DNA from: Pseudoflavonifractor phocaeensis | GTDB lineage: Bacteria; Bacillota; Clostridia; Oscillospirales; Oscillospiraceae | Length of the DNA: 58,183 bases | Assembly: GCF_021531375.1 (NCBI RefSeq) | Contig: NZ_JADYTU010000013.1 | Span: 1-58,183, forward strand | Reading direction: 5' to 3' | Part shown: positions 31,028 to 45,134 of the stretch, one piece after another | Layout of the letters: the number at the start of each line of letters is the position of its first letter | How positions within the stretch are numbered: position 1 is the stretch's first letter | Notes under the pieces: model-generated | Told to the model about the DNA's origin: nothing | Databases searched by the model: none | Seen by the model: only the letters and a program-made list of their open reading frames with translations | Made by a program: the position numbers and the translations under genes

Positions 31028-32341
31028 TCACTGCCCGGTCAGGGGAATGAGGATATTAACGGAAAACCAGTTATCCTTGGCCTCAATGGTCATGGTGCCG
31101 CCGTATTTTTGGGCGGTATAGCGCATACTCTTGACGCCGTAGCCGTGGTAATTGCCGTCCTCCTTGGTGGTCACAGGGTCGCCGCTCCGGAAGTTCACCG
31201 GCTCCGGACAGTAGTTTTCGCAGCAGATGATCAAAAAGTCCTTCTTTGAAAACACCGCCAGGTGGATCAGCCGCTTCTTCTTGTCCGGGATGCGCAGCTC
31301 ACACTCGATGGCGTTGTCCAGCAGGTTGCCGAACACAGAACAGATATCCATGACGCTCATGAAGGTGAGCAGAGCGCCGTCGGCCACACAGGTCAGCTCA
31401 ATGCCGTGCTTGGCGCAGTACAGGCTCTTGCCGGTCAGCACCGTGTCCAGCACCGAATTTCCCGTTTTGTTCTGGGCCTCGTAGTCGCGGATCTCCCGCT
31501 CCATCCCGTCCAGAAAGTCGGCCCGCTTCTGGGCGTCCGGCTCGGCCCGCAGCACGGCGATCTGGTGCTTTAAATCGTGGTACTTGCGGTTGATCAGGTC
31601 AATGCTCTCCCGGCTCTGCCGGTATTGTACATACTGGTTCTGCAGGATATTCTGCACCGCGTCCAGCTCCCGCCGTACCTGAAGTTCCCTGTGCTGGATG
31701 TGGTAGGCGTACAGCATCACCACTCCCGCCAGATCCATCAGGGTGCGGATGTTATAGATCTCACTGATATAGTTTCCGCTAAAGGGAGTATTGGCGTAGA
31801 CGAAGCTGAGGTTGCTCATCACAAAGCAGGCCAGCCCGATCATCAGCGCCGGCCACAGTTCTCCTCGTTGGATAGACAACCGCGGGTACGGCGGGGCTGG
31901 CTTTGGCTCCAGCCGGTACATCACAAGGAAAACCGCCCCGTAGACCGCGGCGGTAAAGAGCAGGGCCGATGCCGGCCCCGCCCATTCCCGGCCTCCGGCC
32001 AGAAAAGTATACAGCTGCCAGGCCAGGGAGGCGGCAAACTCCGCCAGCAGAAAGGCACGCACCGTGCAGTACCCCGCGCTGAGCGCCGACATGTCCCCAC
32101 ACAGCAGGATGGTCAGGAACATCAGGCCCACCGCCACCGCCATGCAGGGGATCCACAGGGCCACCGGCAGGTGACCTGTGAAGTGCAAAAACAGGCACTG
32201 GACCACCAGGGACAGAGTCAGCACAGCGGCCAGCCGCCAGCCCCGCAGCCGCCGCTGGTATTTGCAGATATACAGTAGGCAGCTACCCCACTCAGCCAGG
32301 GCGGTGAGGATCCGGGGGATATTCGGCATCACATCTTTCAT
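31028..32341 (-). CDS. GHKL sensor histidine kinase (AgrC/LytS-like)
   Basis: 437 residues. About six membrane helices fill the first 230 residues. The phospho-acceptor histidine is in NRKYHDLKHQIAVL. The ATP-binding GHKL domain shows LLDNAIECELR (N box) and GNYHGYGVKSMRYTAQKYGGTMTIEAKDNWFSVNI (G box). It is the HPK10-type kinase used with LytTR regulators, often as a peptide receptor. Its start overlaps the regulator's stop by four bases. No AgrD or AgrB gene is in the window, so its signal is unknown. Confidence 0.9.
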   Translation of the reverse strand: MKDVMPNIPRILTALAEWGSCLLYICKYQRRLRGWRLAAVLTLSLVVQCLFLHFTGHLPVALWIPCMAVAVGLMFLTILLCGDMSALSAGYCTVRAFLLAEFAASLAWQLYTFLAGGREWAGPASALLFTAAVYGAVFLVMYRLEPKPAPPYPRLSIQRGELWPALMIGLACFVMSNLSFVYANTPFSGNYISEIYNIRTLMDLAGVVMLYAYHIQHRELQVRRELDAVQNILQNQYVQYRQSRESIDLINRKYHDLKHQIAVLRAEPDAQKRADFLDGMEREIRDYEAQNKTGNSVLDTVLTGKSLYCAKHGIELTCVADGALLTFMSVMDICSVFGNLLDNAIECELRIPDKKKRLIHLAVFSKKDFLIICCENYCPEPVNFRSGDPVTTKEDGNYHGYGVKSMRYTAQKYGGTMTIEAKDNWFSVNILIPLTGQ

Positions 32342-33051
32342 CGTCCCACCCCGCTGATATAGGCGGTCAGACTCTCCAGCAAGGCGGCCTTTTTGGCCCG
32401 GCTGATGGGCAGCTGCGCGTCCCCCACCAGGGCGCAGCCGTCCCGGATCCCATCCACATGATTCAAATTCACCAGGTACCCCTTGTGGCAGCGGAAAAAG
32501 TGAAGGGGGGCAAGGTCGTTCTCCATCTGCTGGATGGTACCGGCCGTGGCCGCGTAATTCCCGGTGCGGGTGTGGTAGATCAGCTGGTGGCCCAGACTTT
32601 CCACATAGTAGACGTCGTCCGCCGCTACCTTCATGGTTCCTCCCTTTACGGGAATGGTAAGATAGACCGCCTCCCGGCGGCCCAGACGGCGGATCGCCCG
32701 TTCCAACCGCTGGCTGAAGGCAAAGTAGTTCACCGGCTTGAGGACATAGTCCAGCGCGTCCACCGCATAGCCCCGGATGGCGTACTGGGGCATGTTTGTG
32801 ATGAAGATCAGGATCACCTCGGGATCCTGACGGCGGATCATCTCTGCCGCCGTCATCCCGTTCAGGAAAGGCATCTCCACATCCAGCAGAATGATATCAA
32901 ACTGCGCCCTGTACCGCTCCACCAGTTCGTCGCCGTCGGAGTAGACCGTCACTTCAAACCGATGGCCGCTCTCCCTGGCATAGTCGTCAATGTAGCGCCG
33001 CAATTCCTGGGCACACAGGGCATCGTCATCCGCGATCGCAATCCGAATCAT
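32338..33051 (-). CDS. LytTR response regulator (AgrA-like)
   Basis: 237 residues. The receiver domain begins IRIAIADDDALCAQELRRYI with the acidic pair, has the phospho-aspartate in FDIILLDVEMPFLNGM and the switch lysine in YVLKPVNYFAFSQRL. The LytTR DNA-binding domain covers about residues 135-237 (FFRCHKGYLVNLNHVDGI). The start at 33051 is supported by GGGGGAG and the conserved receiver start; the frame continues 24 codons upstream. It probably activates the GH3 operon through the direct repeats there. Confidence 0.92.
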   Translation of the reverse strand: MIRIAIADDDALCAQELRRYIDDYARESGHRFEVTVYSDGDELVERYRAQFDIILLDVEMPFLNGMTAAEMIRRQDPEVILIFITNMPQYAIRGYAVDALDYVLKPVNYFAFSQRLERAIRRLGRREAVYLTIPVKGGTMKVAADDVYYVESLGHQLIYHTRTGNYAATAGTIQQMENDLAPLHFFRCHKGYLVNLNHVDGIRDGCALVGDAQLPISRAKKAALLESLTAYISGVGR

Positions 33052-33085
33052 GGCGGTTTCTCCCCCTTTTCCTCTCTTGTTTACC

Positions 33086-33114
33086 AGTATATCTGACGCT
33101 GTTAGGGTTTTCAA
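33086..33114 (-). promoter_or_regulatory. Promoter of the regulator-kinase pair
   Basis: Minus-strand TTGAAA and TATACT with a 17-base spacer, about 30 bases before the start codon. Confidence 0.75.
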
Positions 33115-33485
33115 GAGAAACACCCGCCAAATCGGGATTTTAGCCCAAACACCGCCGTCCCTTGGGCCGCTCGAGGTTTTCCGGAGATATGAAAGTCACT
33201 TCATGCTGCGATATTACAACGCAAAAAGGCCGGAATTCTTATGCTTCCGGTCTTTTTTGCATTTGCGGCATATAAATACTGCTCGGAAGGCTTTCGGCTC
33301 CGGGCAGTACGTTTGCGCTGATCCAATTTGTGCCTCTTAACAGGGCAGAAACATCTTGCGACAACCGGCCTGTGAGGCCTTGGCATGGTCCCTGAGGCAG
33401 GGGCAGGCGGGCACGGCATAGCTGAAACGGAGACGGTAAGCGGATGCCGGAAATGCCTGTGGGCGGTGCCATGTGTTCCGTGCGG
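33115..33485. other. Intergenic stretch with one hairpin
   Basis: AAGGCCGGAA pairs with TTCCGGTCTT (about 33225-33256) followed by T6, a terminator for plus-strand transcripts or a relic. The rest holds only short frames without ribosome sites. Confidence 0.45.
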
Positions 33486-34358: not shown

Positions 34359-34991
34359 ATGAAACGAGAAGAAAAAAACGCCCTGTCACGCCAGCGGATT
34401 CTGGAGGCGGCGATGCAGGAGTTTTCGGAACGGGGCTATGAGGGTGCGTCCCTGAATACGGTCTGCTCCGAGCACTCCATTTCCAAGGGGATCATCTACC
34501 ATTACTTCCGGGACAAAGATGAGCTTTATCTTCTGTGCGTGGAACTGTGCTTTGACTCCATCACCCGGTATCTGAAAGAGGCCACAGAAGGCCTTGGCGG
34601 TACGGCAGAGCAGCGCCTTGGGGCATATTTTGACGCCAGGCTCCGCTTTTTCGCGGAGAATCCTTTGTATCTCGGGATCTTTGCGGACGCCGCGTTCCAT
34701 CCTCCGGCGGCCCTATCCGCTGAAATCGGGAAACGCCGCGCGGAATTCGACGCGCTGAATATCTCCGTGCTGACCGAGCTTTTGAACGGCGAGCCCTTGC
34801 GGGAATGTCTTTCCGTCCCGGCCATCGTGGAAGATTTCAGAATGTATATGGACTATTTCAACATGCGGTTTAAGGCGGCGTTCAGCGAGGACCGCTCCGC
34901 CGAATCAATTCTGCGTGAACATGAAGAAAGGTGTCACCGGCAGCTCCATATCCTGCTGTACGGTGTATTGGGTGATCATTATGAATCGTAA
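34359..34991 (+). CDS. TetR family transcriptional regulator
   Basis: 210 residues. The N-terminal HTH is clear: RQRILEAAMQEFSERGYEGASLNTVCSEHSISKGIIYHYFRDKDELYLLC. The C-terminal ligand domain is not assignable. GAAGGGAG precedes the ATG. It overlaps the MATE gene by 11 bases, so the two are co-translated, and it very likely represses its own operon through the palindrome at 34321-34338. Confidence 0.92.
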   Translation: MKREEKNALSRQRILEAAMQEFSERGYEGASLNTVCSEHSISKGIIYHYFRDKDELYLLCVELCFDSITRYLKEATEGLGGTAEQRLGAYFDARLRFFAENPLYLGIFADAAFHPPAALSAEIGKRRAEFDALNISVLTELLNGEPLRECLSVPAIVEDFRMYMDYFNMRFKAAFSEDRSAESILREHEERCHRQLHILLYGVLGDHYES

Positions 34992-36369
34992 TTCTTCCTC
35001 TGAAAGAGAATCTCTGCTCTCCACCGTTAAGCCCTCCAACGCCATCGTCAGTCTGGCCATCCCCGCTACTCTGGCTTTGCTGGCAAAGGCGGTCTATAAC
35101 ATCGTGGATACGGCATACATCGGAATGCTGAACGATGACATTGCCCTGGCGGCGGTCGGCGTTACCCTGCCCCTGCTGCTGATCATGGTGTCCATTGAAA
35201 ACATTTTCGCGGCGGGCGCGGCCGTGCTGGCCGGACGTCAGCTCGGCGCCGGCGACAAAGACGGCGCGAACCAAACGGTAACCACCATCGTGGGCTTTTC
35301 CATCCTGGTAGGAATTGGCCTGTGTGTTCTGGGCATCATTTTCATAGAACCGCTGCTGCGGGCCTTCGGCGCGTCGGACGCGGTGCTGCCCCAGGCCAAG
35401 GACTACGCGTTCTGGATGTTCATTGCCGCGCTGTTCAATCTGCCGGCTCAAAGCCTGAACTGTGCGGCCCGCGCGGAATCCTCGGTGAAGATCTCCTCCA
35501 TCGCGGTCATCACCGGCGCGGCGCTCAACGTGGCGCTGGACCCGGTCTTTATGTTCTCCTGGGGCTTCGGCATGGGCGTTGAGGGTGCCTCCCTGGCCAC
35601 GACCATTTCCCAGTGCGTCACCTTTGTCATCCTGGCGTGGCTCTATCTCAGCGGACACTCCATGATCAAGGTCCATCCCAAATACTTCAAGCTGTCCGGA
35701 AGCTTTTTGTGGGCAGTCACCGCCATCGGTATCCCCACCGCCGTCATCCAGATCTGTCTCGCCGTGGCCACCTCGCTGACCAACATCGCGGCCAAGCCGC
35801 TGCCCGATTCCGACCTTATCATCGCGGCATACGGCGTTGTCCAGCGGCTCATTCTCATCGGCTGCTATGTGGTGATGGGCTTTATGCAGGGGTACCAGCC
35901 GGTTGCCTCCTACGCGTTTGGCGCCAAGGATGAGGACCACTTCCATGACGCGGTGCGGTTCGCGCTGAAGGGCGCCCTTCTGCTGACGGTCGTGGTAGCC
36001 GCCGCCTATATCATCCTTGCCCAGCCGCTCATTATGCTCTTTAACCGCAATCCCATGGTCATCGAGTTCGGACGGCGTCTGCTGATCTCTCAGGTAGCCC
36101 TTTACCCTGCTTTTGGTCTGTGCTATATGATGACCATTACCTTCCAGACCATCGGCGCTTCCAAAATGGGTCTGTTCCTTTCCATGATCCGGCAGGGACT
36201 CTTCTATGTGCCCTTCATTCTGGCGCTGCCCAAGTGCTTTGGCGTGACAGAGATCTACGCCGCACAACCCGCCGCCGATCTGTGCACGATTCTGGTATGC
36301 GTATTCTTCGTAAAACGCATGAAGCAGATGGCCTCGGAGCGTATGGGCGCAAGTCCAAACAAGCAGTAA
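34981..36369 (+). CDS. MATE family efflux transporter
   Basis: 462 residues with about twelve membrane segments. The N-terminus has SLAIPATLALLAKAVYNIVDTAYIGMLND and the second half YGVVQRLILIGCYVVMGFMQGYQPVASYAFGA, characteristic of the NorM/DinF-like branch. It is likely a drug or metabolite exporter induced when a ligand releases the TetR repressor. The ATG at 34981 overlaps the tetR end. It is not closely similar by eye to the MATE at 16377. Confidence 0.92.
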   Translation: MNRNSSSERESLLSTVKPSNAIVSLAIPATLALLAKAVYNIVDTAYIGMLNDDIALAAVGVTLPLLLIMVSIENIFAAGAAVLAGRQLGAGDKDGANQTVTTIVGFSILVGIGLCVLGIIFIEPLLRAFGASDAVLPQAKDYAFWMFIAALFNLPAQSLNCAARAESSVKISSIAVITGAALNVALDPVFMFSWGFGMGVEGASLATTISQCVTFVILAWLYLSGHSMIKVHPKYFKLSGSFLWAVTAIGIPTAVIQICLAVATSLTNIAAKPLPDSDLIIAAYGVVQRLILIGCYVVMGFMQGYQPVASYAFGAKDEDHFHDAVRFALKGALLLTVVVAAAYIILAQPLIMLFNRNPMVIEFGRRLLISQVALYPAFGLCYMMTITFQTIGASKMGLFLSMIRQGLFYVPFILALPKCFGVTEIYAAQPAADLCTILVCVFFVKRMKQMASERMGASPNKQ

Positions 36370-36405
36370 CCCAGCCCATCACGGCGAAAACATCCGTCAA
36401 ACATA

Positions 36406-36454
36406 AAAACACGGTCCGAACAGCGGAGAGGTTGCTGTACGGACCGTGTTTTTT
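36406..36454. terminator. Bidirectional terminator between MATE and the micro-genes
   Basis: AAAACACGGTCCG pairs with CGGACCGTGTTTT with an inner CAGC/GCTG-type stem. It ends the tetR-MATE unit and could equally end the minus-strand micro-gene unit. Confidence 0.88.
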
Positions 36455-36495
36455 ACTTTGAGTGATGGATGGATCACACAAAGGGAAGAAATCAT

Positions 36496-36558
36496 TCACC
36501 GGGCGAATGTGCTGTAATATTCAGCCAGTAGAGCAGGCAGCTTCAGCGCCTTTTTCAT
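36496..36558 (-). CDS. Micro-gene C: 20-residue peptide
   Basis: Encodes MKKALKLPALLAEYYSTFAR. AAAGGAGA lies seven to nine bases before the ATG. It is clearly a paralogue of the neighbouring 18-residue peptide: both read MKK, a leucine-rich stretch, then LL[AS][ED]YY[SR]TF[AS]R and an immediate stop. Two related tiny frames, each with a strong ribosome site, are unlikely by chance. No homologue with a known role is recalled. It has a positive N-terminus and an amphipathic middle, no cysteine. Possible roles are signalling peptide, modified-peptide precursor or leader; none is proven. Confidence 0.6.
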   Translation of the reverse strand: MKKALKLPALLAEYYSTFAR

Positions 36559-36600
36559 CTCAAAAATCTCCTTTCACAACAAATCTTGGAGTGTATCGTC

Positions 36601-36657
36601 TCACCGGGAGAAGGTCCGGTAGTAATCGCTCAGCAGGGCGCTCAGAGTCTTTTTCAT
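36601..36657 (-). CDS. Micro-gene B: 18-residue peptide
   Basis: Encodes MKKTLSALLSDYYRTFSR. GAAAGGAG lies about 9 bases before the ATG. It shares the LLxxYYxTFxR end with micro-gene C, 43 bases downstream. The YY pair, Thr-Phe and terminal Arg are kept while the codons around them differ, which suggests selection on the peptide. It is in the same direction as micro-gene A and C, with no terminator between them. Confidence 0.6.
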   Translation of the reverse strand: MKKTLSALLSDYYRTFSR

Positions 36658-36707
36658 GATGTAACCGCTCCTTTCTGTCTCAGTCTGTAACTTCGTTTCA
36701 GGACGGC

Positions 36708-36785
36708 TCACATATTGTGGCAGGAAGTCTGACAATTCCCGCACCGCGCGCCGACCACATGTTTCAAAATGTTCTGTTCCATCAT
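36708..36785 (-). CDS. Micro-gene A: 25-residue Cys-rich peptide
   Basis: The frame starts MMEQNILKHVVGA and ends RCGNCQTSCHNM. Three cysteines form CxxCxxxC close to the C-terminus. AGGGAGG stands upstream; spacing favours the second ATG (36782), giving 24 residues. The CGNCQTSC core recalls the start of the Cys-rich part of SCIFF ribosomal peptides (CxxCQTSCQSAC), but only three of six cysteines are present and no radical SAM maturase lies in the window. Alternatives are a metal-binding or redox-sensing micro-peptide. It is the first gene of the putative minus-strand unit opposite lysR. Confidence 0.58.
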   Translation of the reverse strand: MMEQNILKHVVGARCGNCQTSCHNM

Positions 36786-36893
36786 CAGGACCTCCCTTTC
36801 GTTTTCTGGTTTTCTTTTAAAATCTTTCCGTTCCCTTTGGACACCCTTATCCTAACACCAACGCATCAAAAAAGGAAATACATATATCATTGC

Positions 36894-36922
36894 ATTTATC
36901 ATATCTTTTTGATATGATAAAT
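36894..36922. promoter_or_regulatory. Long dyad before lysR, probable LysR operator
   Basis: ATTTATCATATC-ttttt-GATATGATAAAT has perfect 12-base arms. It contains TTATCA and TGATAA spaced as in LysR-type boxes and lies directly before the Shine-Dalgarno of lysR, on the side facing the divergent micro-genes. Confidence 0.6.
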
Positions 36923-36937
36923 AGGAGGTGATCCCAG

Positions 36938-37891
36938 ATGGAATTACGCACGCTCCGCTACTTTATTACGGTGGCCCAGGAGCTGAATATTACCCGGGCC
37001 GCGGAAAAACTGAACATGAGCCAGCCTCCGCTGAGCAACCAGATCCGGGGGCTGGAGGAGGAGCTGGGGGTCCGGCTCTTCATTCGCGGCAAGCGTCGGC
37101 TGGCTCTGACCGACGAGGGCAGTCTCCTCCTGCGCCGCGCCGTCCAGCTGCTGGATCTGGCGGACAAGACCCGGCAGGAGCTGGCCACCATGAAGGACGG
37201 CGTCTCCGGCACCATCTGCCTGGGCATGGTGGAGGGACGGGCTCCCTATCTGTCCGCCCGGTGGATTGCCGGCTTCCGGGAGGAATTCCCTCTGGTCCGG
37301 TACAGTCTGTGGAACGGCAGCAGCGACGATGTGCTGGACCGGCTCCACAAGGGTCTGGCCGACTTGGCCGTCATTGCCGCCCCCTATGACACCGAGCATC
37401 TGGAGGGCTTCTCCGTGGCACGGGAGCCCTGGGTGGCCGTCATCTCCCGCAATCATCCCCTGGCCCAGCAGCCCGGGGACCAACTGCCCCTGTCCGCCCT
37501 GGTGGGGCAGCCCCTGATCGTACCCAGCCGAAAATCCCGGATCGAGGCCATCCGGGATTGGTTCGGCGAGATCGGCGCGGAGCCCGACATTTTATGCGAG
37601 ATGTCCAACTATGTGGACGCGGTGGCCCTGGCCGAGCAGAATGTGGGCGTCAGCATCTTCCCCCAGACCACCTACACCCCCAACGACCTGGTGGTGTCCA
37701 AGGTCATCACCCAGCCCGCCCGCCAGGCGGAATATGTGCTGGTCTGGAGCAAGGAACAGCGCCCCTCCGGTCTGGTCCAGGCCTTTATCGACTATGTCCA
37801 GGACTTTTTGGAGGAGGACAAGATCCACTCCCGGCGCTTCCGGGTCCGGGAGGAGGAGCACGTTCTTCCCCAGGAGACGGAATATCTTTGA
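36938..37891 (+). CDS. LysR family transcriptional regulator
   Basis: 317 residues. The N-terminal winged helix is MELRTLRYFITVAQELNITRAAEKLNMSQPPLSNQIRGLEEELGVRLF. The C-terminal two-lobed effector domain runs from about residue 90 (SGTICLGMVEGRAP) to 300. The CynR/BenM-like branch usually senses a small anion or aromatic. The Shine-Dalgarno AGGAGGTGAT is a full anti-16S match. It is divergent from three micro-genes and followed after 66 bases by the Rieske oxidoreductase; either could be its target. Confidence 0.92.
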   Translation: MELRTLRYFITVAQELNITRAAEKLNMSQPPLSNQIRGLEEELGVRLFIRGKRRLALTDEGSLLLRRAVQLLDLADKTRQELATMKDGVSGTICLGMVEGRAPYLSARWIAGFREEFPLVRYSLWNGSSDDVLDRLHKGLADLAVIAAPYDTEHLEGFSVAREPWVAVISRNHPLAQQPGDQLPLSALVGQPLIVPSRKSRIEAIRDWFGEIGAEPDILCEMSNYVDAVALAEQNVGVSIFPQTTYTPNDLVVSKVITQPARQAEYVLVWSKEQRPSGLVQAFIDYVQDFLEEDKIHSRRFRVREEEHVLPQETEYL

Positions 37892-37957: not shown

Positions 37958-39382
37958 ATGGAGTCTCTCTGGCATCGGGACGCGGCGGCGTCCCCCGGCC
38001 GTCCCCTGGCCGGAAATCTGCATACAGACGCCGCGGTCATCGGCGGCGGCATGGCCGGGGTCCTCATCGCACGGGCCCTGACCCGGGCGGGACTGCGGAC
38101 CGCGGTGCTGGAAGCACGCGCCCTGGGCAGCGGCCAGACCGGGAACACCACGGCCAAGATCACCGCCCAGCAGGGGATGATCTACCACCGGCTCATCCGG
38201 CAGCTGGGCGAGCCCTCCGCGCGGCTGTACGCCCAGGCCAGTCAGGCGGCGGTGGAGGAATACCGGCGGCTGGCCCGGACGGGCCTGGACTGTGACTTCA
38301 CCGACTGCCCGGCCTATCTCTACTCCCAATTCCAGGAGCTTCCCCTGGTCCGGGAGGCGGCGGCCTGCCGGACCCTGGGGCTGGAGGCCTCCTTCACCTG
38401 TACCACCACCCTGCCCTTTGCGGTCAAGGGGGCGGTGCGAATGGAGGGGCAGGCCATGTTCCACCCCCTGAAATTCCTGTATGCGGCCGCCAAGGGGCTG
38501 GAGGTCTATGAACGCACCCCGGTGCTGACGGTACGCGGGGATCAGCTGGTCACGCCTCGGGGCCTGGTCACCGCCCGCCACATCATCTTTGCTTCCCATT
38601 ACCCCTTCGTCAACTTTCCCGGCCTCTACTTCGCCCGGATGCACCAGGAGCGCAGCTATGTGGCGGCGGTATCGGGCGCTCCCCAACTGGACGGCATCTA
38701 CTACGGCGTGGACCCCGATGGGCTGTCCTTCCGCAACGCCGGTCCCTACCTTCTGGTGGGCGGCGGGGGCCATCCTACGGGGAAGGGCGCGGACCAGAAG
38801 CCCTACGACATGCTGGAGTCCCGGGCCCGGAGCTTCTGGCCCGGCTCCGTCCCGGCCGCCCGCTGGTCGGCACAGGACTGCACGACGCTGGACGGCCTGC
38901 CCTATATCGGCGTTTTCAGCCCCTCCCGCCCCAACTGGTATGTCGCCACCGGATTCCAGAAATGGGGGATGACCGCCTCCATGGTGGCCGCCCGGCTCAT
39001 CTCCCACCTGATTACCGGCGAGAAGGACCCCCTGGCTCCAGTTCTCTCCCCCCGCCGGTTCAGCTGGCAGGCAGCCCGGAATCTGGCCGGAGAGGGGGGC
39101 CGGGCCGCCAAAAATCTGGCGAAAAACTACTTTGGCCGCCCCGCCCTGTCCCTGGACCAGCTTCCTCCCGGCCAGGGGGCCGTGGTTTCCTGGCAGGGGA
39201 AAAAGGTGGGCGCCTACCGGGAGCCCGACGGTCAGGTCCATCTGGTGGACCCCCGGTGCCCCCATCTGGGCTGTCAGCTGGTCTGGAACCCTGAGGAACG
39301 CACCTGGGACTGCCCCTGCCACGGCTCCAGATTCGACTGGGACGGCAACTTGATCGACAACCCGGCCCAGACCGGGTTATAA
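37958..39382 (+). CDS. FAD-dependent oxidoreductase with C-terminal Rieske domain
   Basis: 474 residues. A DAO-type FAD domain starts at about residue 22 with AAVIGGGMAGVLIARALTRAG and includes GNTTAKITAQQGMIYHRLI. A Rieske [2Fe-2S] domain covers about residues 390-474, with ligands in CPHLGC and CPCHGSRFDWDG. Proteins of this build are widespread in Firmicutes and have no firmly known substrate. AAAGGAGGAG precedes the ATG. It follows lysR and probably answers to it. A bidirectional terminator stands directly downstream. Confidence 0.88.
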   Translation: MESLWHRDAAASPGRPLAGNLHTDAAVIGGGMAGVLIARALTRAGLRTAVLEARALGSGQTGNTTAKITAQQGMIYHRLIRQLGEPSARLYAQASQAAVEEYRRLARTGLDCDFTDCPAYLYSQFQELPLVREAAACRTLGLEASFTCTTTLPFAVKGAVRMEGQAMFHPLKFLYAAAKGLEVYERTPVLTVRGDQLVTPRGLVTARHIIFASHYPFVNFPGLYFARMHQERSYVAAVSGAPQLDGIYYGVDPDGLSFRNAGPYLLVGGGGHPTGKGADQKPYDMLESRARSFWPGSVPAARWSAQDCTTLDGLPYIGVFSPSRPNWYVATGFQKWGMTASMVAARLISHLITGEKDPLAPVLSPRRFSWQAARNLAGEGGRAAKNLAKNYFGRPALSLDQLPPGQGAVVSWQGKKVGAYREPDGQVHLVDPRCPHLGCQLVWNPEERTWDCPCHGSRFDWDGNLIDNPAQTGL

Positions 39383-43752: not shown

Positions 43753-43828
43753 GCGTCCGTAGTTCAATGGATAGAGCGTCAGATTCCGGTTCTGAATGTT
43801 GGGGGTTCGAGTCCCTTCGGGCGTACCA
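43753..43828 (+). tRNA. tRNA-Arg (anticodon CCG)
   Basis: A 76-base cloverleaf with encoded CCA; anticodon loop TTCCGGT gives CCG. The first pair is G1:U72. An integrase gene begins its 3' end 77 bases downstream and points toward the tRNA, the classic arrangement of an attachment site in a tRNA 3' end. Confidence 0.93.
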
Positions 43829-43832
43829 GAGG

Positions 43833-43869
43833 AAAGTCCTGTAACCACAATGGTTGCAGGACTTTTTTT
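43833..43869 (+). terminator. Terminator after tRNA-Arg
   Basis: AAAGTCCTG pairs with CAGGACTTT with inner TAACC/GGTTG, followed by T7. Its stem differs from the shared stem of the Ala and Leu terminators. Confidence 0.88.
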
Positions 43870-43904
43870 GCCTCTTTTTCGAATGTTTTCCCTTGCGTTT
43901 TCCC

Positions 43905-45134
43905 TTATTGATCGTCTGATGGACCAGAATCCAATTGTTTAAGAAACTGGTTCATCTTGTCAGCTCCCTCCCGGCGCATCTGCGCCGTCACATGCCCATA
44001 TGTATCCAGTGTGAAAGCAGCGGCATAATGTCCCAGGTTTTCCTGAACCGTCTTGATGTCACAGCCGGATTGCAGCGACAGTACGGCATAAGAGTGCCGC
44101 AAGTCATGGAAACGTAGGTTGGGCACTCCCATTGATGCGAATACCCGCTTCAGGTTGCGGTAGACGACATCGTGTTTCAGGTGTGTCCCCAGTTCGTCCG
44201 TGAACACCAGATTATCCGGATTGTTCCACGCCTCCCCTGCCGCTTTCATCATGGATGCTTGCAGGACCTTCTGTCGTTCCAAGGCTTCCACAGCCTTATC
44301 CGGCAGAACGATGAGCCGTGATTTATTGCTCTTGGGAATCGCGTATTGATAACCGCCGTGAGCGCCCCCGAGATACTGCAGCTGCCGTTTGACCATCAGA
44401 GTTTTTCGTGACAAGTCAATGTCGGACCACTGCAGGCCCAGCAGTTCGCTCTGCCGCATCCCCGTAAACAAGTCCACCAGATAGAGGAATTGAAACCGAT
44501 GTCCTTCAATGGCCTTGAAGAAATCCAATACCTGCTGATCCTCCAGTACATGGATGTCCGCCTTGCTTCGCTTCGGTAAAATGGTCCGGTCAGCAGGATT
44601 TGCACTCAAATAACCACACAGCACAGCCTGATGCAATGCGCTGTGCAGTACACCGTGGACATTCTTTACCGTCTTGGGATTGACCGTTTCACCCGTAGCT
44701 GTCTTCTTGGTACTTCGAACTCCATTAATCAGCTTTTGCACCTGTACCGGGGTCAGCGCGGTGAGTTTTACCGCACCAATAGCGGGCTTGATGTGATTTT
44801 TGACCACACCTTCATAGGACTTTTTTGTATGCGGCTTTGTATTTCCCAAATACTCCGCAAGCCAAATATCCAGCCACTCGCTCACAGTGATTTTAGATGG
44901 TGCCTGATTCTTCCCCTCACTGACCTTGGCAGTGGCCTGACGCAGTTTCTCTACCACCTCCCGTTGCGTCTTGGCGGTAACGGACCGCTGGATTTGCTTT
45001 CCACTTCCCAGGTCAAAGCCCGCCGTGTAACGTCCTTCCCAGTATGTATATTCTTTCCCGTTGCGAAACACCTGCTTTTTGCGGATGCTCCCAGCTCCAG
45101 CAGCGCCGTGTCGGGTTCGGTTTTGAGATGCCAT
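43905..45134 (-). CDS. Tyrosine recombinase / integrase
   Basis: 409 residues. An N-terminal arm-binding part (WEGRYTAGFDLGSGKQ) and a core-binding SAM-like domain (ITVSEWLDIWLAEYLGNTKPHTKKSYEGVVKNHIKP) precede the catalytic domain. Catalytic residues are R in FTGMRQSELLGLQW, H..R in LRFHDLRHSYAVL, and the tyrosine in FTLDTYGHVTAQMR. It belongs to the Tn916-type integrase group. It would act at the tRNA-Arg end together with the excisionase just upstream. Confidence 0.95.
   Translation of the reverse strand: MASQNRTRHGAAGAGSIRKKQVFRNGKEYTYWEGRYTAGFDLGSGKQIQRSVTAKTQREVVEKLRQATAKVSEGKNQAPSKITVSEWLDIWLAEYLGNTKPHTKKSYEGVVKNHIKPAIGAVKLTALTPVQVQKLINGVRSTKKTATGETVNPKTVKNVHGVLHSALHQAVLCGYLSANPADRTILPKRSKADIHVLEDQQVLDFFKAIEGHRFQFLYLVDLFTGMRQSELLGLQWSDIDLSRKTLMVKRQLQYLGGAHGGYQYAIPKSNKSRLIVLPDKAVEALERQKVLQASMMKAAGEAWNNPDNLVFTDELGTHLKHDVVYRNLKRVFASMGVPNLRFHDLRHSYAVLSLQSGCDIKTVQENLGHYAAAFTLDTYGHVTAQMRREGADKMNQFLKQLDSGPSDDQ

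Follow-up and report, generated by a model that had tools for sequence, protein, structure and literature searches.

Micro-genes divergent from a LysR-type regulator in Pseudoflavonifractor phocaeensis: a possible dual-function small RNA linked to glutamine or purine status

The micro-gene unit and its regulator

The DNA under study, called the window here, is a 58,183-nt stretch of the Pseudoflavonifractor phocaeensis genome. Three short frames, designated P1, P2 and P3, were found on its minus strand between a MATE transporter gene and the gene of a LysR-type regulator (Table 1). By sequence reading, each ATG is preceded by a Shine-Dalgarno (SD)-like motif: GGGAGG at 5 nt for P1, AGGAGC at 9 nt for P2, and AGGAGA at 8 nt for P3. 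P2 appears in the open reading frame (ORF) list only as the tail of a longer frame with a GTG start. Dinucleotide shuffles of the intergenic strand (n = 2000) were then searched for ORFs with an ATG start, 15-30 codons and an SD match of at least 5/6. The shuffles held 0.12 such ORFs on average, and none of the 2000 contained three, the number observed. The three SD-led frames of 25, 18 and 20 codons reported by a first-pass annotation of this DNA were thus confirmed at their places. P2 and P3 are 72% identical across 39 nt, in agreement with the claim that two of the micro-genes are paralogues, and P1 is unrelated to them.

Table 1. Features at the micro-gene unit and on either side of it
Feature	Position	Strand	Size or sequence	Description or basis
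MATE transporter gene	34984..36369	plus		convergent, outside the unit; TIGR00797 193.6 bits, over cut-off
Terminator common to the convergent MATE gene	36391..36467	strandless		34-nt arms, 82% complementary
Conserved RNA hairpin	36456..36483	minus	CUUUG-U-GUGAU-CCAUCC-AUCAC-U-CAAAG	pattern search and consensus fold
P3	36496..36558	minus	20 codons; MKKALKLPALLAEYYSTFAR	P2 paralogue, amphipathicity not clear
P2	36601..36657	minus	18 codons; MKKTLSALLSDYYRTFSR	YYxTF-family microprotein, amphipathic
P1	36708..36785	minus	25 codons; MMEQNILKHVVGARCGNCQTSCHNM	lineage-specific, resembles part of SCIFF
Probable extended -10 box	36849..36854	minus	TGT-TAGGAT	sequence reading and relatives
LysR operator-like dyad	36894..36922	strandless	ATTTATCATATC-AAAAA-GATATGATAAAT	perfect 12-nt inverted repeat, includes T-N11-A
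LysR-type regulator gene	36938..37891	plus	317 aa	oriented divergently to the micro-genes; Pfam domains
FAD/Rieske oxidoreductase gene	37958..39382	plus		just 3' of lysR; Pfam DAO and Rieske

The regulator carries the Pfam domains HTH_1 (85 bits) and LysR_substrate (141 bits), and the oxidoreductase gene is possibly cotranscribed with it. As the first-pass annotation had proposed, the micro-genes diverge from lysR across a long dyad, the arms of which are 100% complementary. No sigma-70-type promoter was called at the unit by a sigma-70 scan. With the probable -10 box, transcription is expected to start at about 36842, and the dyad would then be centred at about -66. LysR boxes sit near -65 of the divergent promoter. 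The locus therefore joins a regulator with LysR domains to a divergent target behind a predicted operator.

A query made from the dyad and promoter found a match in 23 of the 64 genomes of the genus (E<=0.01); the least significant one (G246, E 0.009) is doubtful. In dyad-bearing relatives, lysR often adjoins the unit. The closest LysR found, in G020, is 90% identical, and a search of viral contigs returned one partial match. With at most one mismatch, the operator pattern has a single site in the window genome, so the divergent transcript is probably the main output of the regulator here. Matches away from the unit were found in a few genus-mates (G030:C10, G011, G458, G459, G469, and G016). 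The effects of the regulator in this genome probably run through this transcript or via weaker sites.

The surroundings were examined by reading the frames between 28.0 and 46.5 kb, with family scans for the MATE, LysR and oxidoreductase genes only. Genes for processing, modification or export were not recognised among these ORFs. Frames that we take to be a sensor kinase and a LytTR/AgrA-like regulator lie side by side on the minus strand at 31028-33123, about 4 kb from the unit. A tRNA gene followed by a frame that is presumably an integrase (43905-45134) occupies 43753-45134, which suggests an integrated mobile element.

The first-pass annotation had suggested a peptide signalling or modified-peptide system. 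Residues 3-22 of P1 align to positions 8-27 of the SCIFF ranthipeptide precursor profile, including CGxCQTSC (TIGR03973, E 2.2e-4). However, P1 is half as long as SCIFF and its scores fall below the family cut-offs (21.1 bits against 50 for TIGR03973; 20.9 bits against 27 for PF13165). In 64 genus genomes, clear matches to P1 were found in two, the window genome and G020 (E 1.2e-6); six more were weak (E 0.04 to 0.96). In the G020 homologue, which has no family match, two of the three cysteines are replaced and one is kept. A full SCIFF gene lies elsewhere in the window genome, and P1 could in principle be a SCIFF-like precursor matured by that system. Given the low score, the unconserved cysteines, the restriction to two genomes and the lack of a recognised maturase close by, there is hardly any chance that this is so. 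No support was found for the modified-peptide reading.

The microprotein family within and beyond the genus

P2 and P3 belong to a YYxTF family, and relatives were searched with a peptide HMM. At a threshold of E<=1.1e-6 it returned 29 YYxTF micro-ORFs, from 16 of the 64 genomes of the genus. Such frames are thus kept in related genomes; their absence there had been named in advance as a result that would overturn the proposal. All 29 have a dyad no more than about 540 nt away and none was found elsewhere at that threshold; as most matching genomes supplied model rows and the others carry near-identical peptides, the informative part of this result is the absence of other sites. P2 (E 8e-8) and P3 (E 5e-7) match a model in which both are included. 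In three ORF families, counted without the window and G020 ORFs, 25 of 41 variable sites fall at codon position 3 (p 2.6e-4), and the family L24 taken alone shows no excess (6/14). When 28 dyad units were scored, 18 carried one to three YYxTF micro-ORFs and 10 carried none.

A peptide was called amphipathic when its hydrophobic moment was reached by fewer than 50 of 1000 shuffles. By this measure 12 of 18 family peptides are amphipathic, including P2 (equalled by 7/1000 shuffles), and P3 (171/1000) and five others are not clearly so. P1 is not amphipathic by the same test. The charge of the family peptides spans -1 to +5, and their mean hydrophobicity ranges from -0.46 to 0.37. No noteworthy Pfam or NCBIfam family was found for those of scannable length, in scans that took peptides of at least 20 aa and P2 only within its longer frame. 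The earlier remark that the system could not be matched to a known one holds to the extent that, among the frames long enough to scan, no Pfam or NCBIfam family scored above cut-off. A match of the P2 frame to CsgE (E 0.055) and a match of one remote peptide to SP_0009 (E 0.014) were taken as chance. Export signals were not seen in the family peptides. With neither a family match nor an export signal, the peptides are most simply read as having a partner inside the cell.

Secreted amphipathic peptides, which we take to be comparable to phenol-soluble modulins, or a peptide signal would also be short (17-27 aa), often amphipathic, devoid of an obvious signal sequence and at times encoded in tandem, as these peptides are. 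The wide span of charge argues against this, as do the metabolic genes beside the relatives of the regulator (described below). In addition, no maturase, peptidase, peptide exporter or receptor was recognised beside the unit among the ORFs read at 28.0-46.5 kb, and no secretion signal was seen in the peptides. We consider secretion improbable, and the signalling system put forward in the first-pass annotation was not upheld.

Outside the genus, the motif alone found no further members. The microprotein model A2 matched 3 of 400 family genomes, all of them genus members, and none of 390 from other genera. A wider model, A4, run against 391 class genomes, matched its own genome and one other (G752, E 0.008); this second match was judged to be chance, and no LysR unit was seen when the surrounding 3 kb was read. 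Remote members were found instead by reading LysR loci.

For this, a LysR alignment scan of named genomes was used, from which 80 loci were kept, and a locus was counted as non-genus if its contig or sequence was unlike the genus hits. SD-led micro-ORFs divergent from lysR were found at eleven non-genus loci (L145, L155, L158, L162, L166, L182, and L192-L196). The peptide of Yanshouia hominis reads MKKLFSLLEEYYRSFGIDID; other examples are MLKKLVALLEEYYRSFSLQIR and MKKVSRLLREYYATFSR, and MKKVEKFLEGLYESYLHR is a tandem case. Tandem copies occur in P. phocaeensis and at L158. The SD scan took in 26 of the 80 loci, L183 being among those left out, and the HMM scan took in all 80. Each frame returned by the SD scan had the build of the micro-ORFs, with kinship judged by eye. 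The HMM gave no match at L182 or L194-L196 and weak matches for the other remote micro-ORFs (E 0.003 to 0.4). At 21 distant LysR loci (L201-L221), it gave no match at E<=1.

In a tree of the regulators, built without L196, micro-ORF loci stand on both main branches. Their labels are clustered, requiring 3 changes where shuffles need 11.5 (27 of the 65 rows were unlabelled), a difference to which near-copies contribute.

RNA elements of the predicted transcript

Beyond what the first-pass annotation described, we found that the layout recurs in relatives and that an RNA hairpin lies 3' of P3. With at most one mismatch, the core of this hairpin has 11 sites, spread over 9 of 36 genomes and all at these loci; the reversed control gave none. 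Among the 28 dyad units, 22 have the core and two more (G462 and G294) a variant, 24 in total. Of the 10 units that have no micro-ORF, 7 retain the hairpin or its variant; the other three (G012, G474, and G468) are also without the CCATCC element. This retention suggests that the unit probably yields the RNA as a product in its own right. In five hairpin units without a micro-ORF (L038, L041, L043, L044, and L050), a MoxR-like gene lies 3'; in G028/L038 it encodes an AAA_5 protein and is followed by CobT_C/VWA and CstA genes.

The run of micro-genes was said to end in a terminator, and a long hairpin with A/T runs on both sides is indeed present there. Its loop holds CCUCUCC, which resembles an anti-Shine-Dalgarno sequence. 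In the consensus fold, double changes occur at 6 of 10 terminator-stem pairs and at 1 of 10 hairpin pairs, in at least 1 of 18 sequences. A simple terminator scan did not report this structure. That scan gave two terminator-like sites, which is the chance level (shuffle mean 2.3), one of them a weak hairpin at 36509-36493 that overlaps the end of P3.

At the gathering threshold, an Rfam search of the window returned 3 tRNAs only. The same search of 11 relative loci returned tRNAs and four glmS ribozymes only, none of them at the unit. When 36300-37000 was searched permissively, each of the 6 matches fell short of its gathering score. A covariance model, R1, matched 104 of 400 family genomes at E<=0.01, with matches under about 35 bits judged to be terminator-like noise; the clear matches lie in G030 (3), G000, G020, and G294. 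A tandem-repeat search found none.

The fold of the predicted transcript has a z score of -3.3, and 1 of 100 shuffles folded equally well. A structured RNA with tiny tandem ORFs could recall type I toxin peptides under RNA control. The peptides are however charged and, at the hydrophobicity given above, not membrane-spanning, and the promoter layout is of the LysR type, so we hold this to be very improbable.

It could also be that the microproteins alone matter, as intracellular products of a LysR-controlled mRNA whose hairpin is merely a 3' stability element. The CCAUCC hairpin was not seen, and a terminator is present, in the seven non-genus units read (L145, L155, L158, L162, L166, L192, and L193), all of which have micro-ORFs; this fits such a reading, as do the tandem copies. 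The units that keep the hairpin or a variant without a micro-ORF speak against it, and we think it unlikely, although it deserves to be kept in mind.

Glutamine and purine genes beside related units and regulators

The genes 3' of the units were compared next. A purF gene follows 11 of the 18 units with micro-ORFs, once as a fragment (G036), against none of the 10 units without, and micro-ORFs and purF thus co-occur in the genus. It starts a few tens of nt past the terminator. The unit could therefore be a leader or attenuator, in which micro-ORF translation governs read-through of the terminator, chiefly into purF, the window copy having lost its downstream gene. In the remaining 7 micro-ORF units, including that of the window, no purF was found within the 700 nt scanned, and the window unit instead meets the convergent MATE gene; such a downstream gene was found at 11 of the 28 genus units. 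The non-genus units read are without purF, with no purF match at the eleven non-genus micro-ORF loci, and no run of codons for a single amino acid was seen. We regard the leader as rather unlikely. Units with purF after the terminator may nevertheless also, or mainly, act as leaders.

The neighbours of the LysR relatives include genes for GSIII, asparagine synthase, CTP synthase, an ammonium transporter with a P-II protein, and PurA, as well as a class-II glutamine amidotransferase fragment read as GltB. Nine reference enzymes of glutamine/purine type were compared with these loci. Homologues were found at 23 of 59 LysR-relative loci and at none of 21 distant LysRs (Fisher p 2e-4), or at 14 of 42 when the genus loci were set aside (p 0.0014); both p values are flattered, as the enzymes were picked from the relatives' own loci after looking and the loci share ancestry. 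In the window, none of the reference enzymes lies beside lysR. Since the LysR clade adjoins glutamine and purine genes, we infer with moderate confidence that the signal is glutamine/nitrogen or purine status. These neighbours point to metabolism rather than to the signalling role proposed earlier.

Taken together, the results lead us to favour, tentatively, a dual-function small RNA under LysR control, probably linked to glutamine/purine status, with microproteins that act inside the cell; we put its chance at slightly short of even. The regulator would bind the dyad and activate a single transcript, divergent and about 440 nt long. The 5' part of this RNA would be translated to microproteins, here P1 and two YYxTF members, which probably bind a partner protein in the cell. 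The 3' part would consist of the stem-loop with its C-rich loop and the terminator loop CCUCUCC, both of which fit pairing with the ribosome-binding sites of other mRNAs. The RNA part and the metabolic link of this reading are drawn from conservation and gene neighbourhood. A more specific form of this proposal is that the 17-27 aa microproteins bind and tune a glutamine-handling enzyme such as PurF or glutamine synthetase, and that the RNA encoding them also silences mRNAs by pairing with them. The regulator clade would then adjoin glutamine synthetase, asparagine synthase and purine genes in some lineages and be paired with the transcript in others. In this full form the idea is speculative and rather unlikely.

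OxyR and OxyS are a LysR regulator and its divergent small RNA. The present unit resembles them in having a LysR gene divergent from a short, presumably regulated RNA, but it has another LysR and another signal, and we know of no peptide coding in OxyS. A literature survey at title level gave precedents, none of which was recognised as the LysR/YYxTF unit. The unit would link microproteins, together with a candidate regulatory RNA, to what is probably glutamine/purine control, for which, to our knowledge, precedents come only from archaea, cyanobacteria and Vibrio. If the favoured explanation is true, it would reveal, in Oscillospiraceae of the gut and their kin, a gene family whose products (17-27 aa) are below the size of routine annotation, and a concrete output for a LysR regulator of gut anaerobes.

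Among the precedents, VcdRP of Vibrio cholerae is described as a dual-function RNA whose 29-aa protein VcdP binds citrate synthase, with VcdR regulation depending on four consecutive cytosines; it is CRP-repressed and has one ORF (PMC8672173). The unit here, as proposed, would likewise combine a tiny ORF and a base-pairing part in a single regulated small RNA, but it is paired with LysR and has up to three YYxTF ORFs per genus unit. The 23-aa sP26 of Methanosarcina mazei is reported as a glutamine synthetase partner, although the same paper did not see stable binding in its samples (PMC11957540). IF7 and IF17 are reported to inactivate cyanobacterial glutamine synthetase (PMC6316151). Both cases are very small proteins linked to glutamine metabolism (PMC11957540, PMC6316151); for the present unit a glutamine-enzyme partner is a proposal.

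A direct test is feasible in relatives for which named strains exist, among them P. phocaeensis An858 and Flintibacter muris DSM 110149. As side observations, the GSI and GSIII genes of the window genome (G000:C22, about 151.5-154.3 kb, L256) and those of G020 (L257) are arranged head to head; in this region of the two genomes no operator-like dyad was found (best 14/25), and a brief look with the loop motif gave no target. In four relatives (L039, L042, L044, and L045), a glmS ribozyme was found upstream of the LysR unit, at a distance of a few kb, indicating that glmS, lysR and purF can be neighbours.
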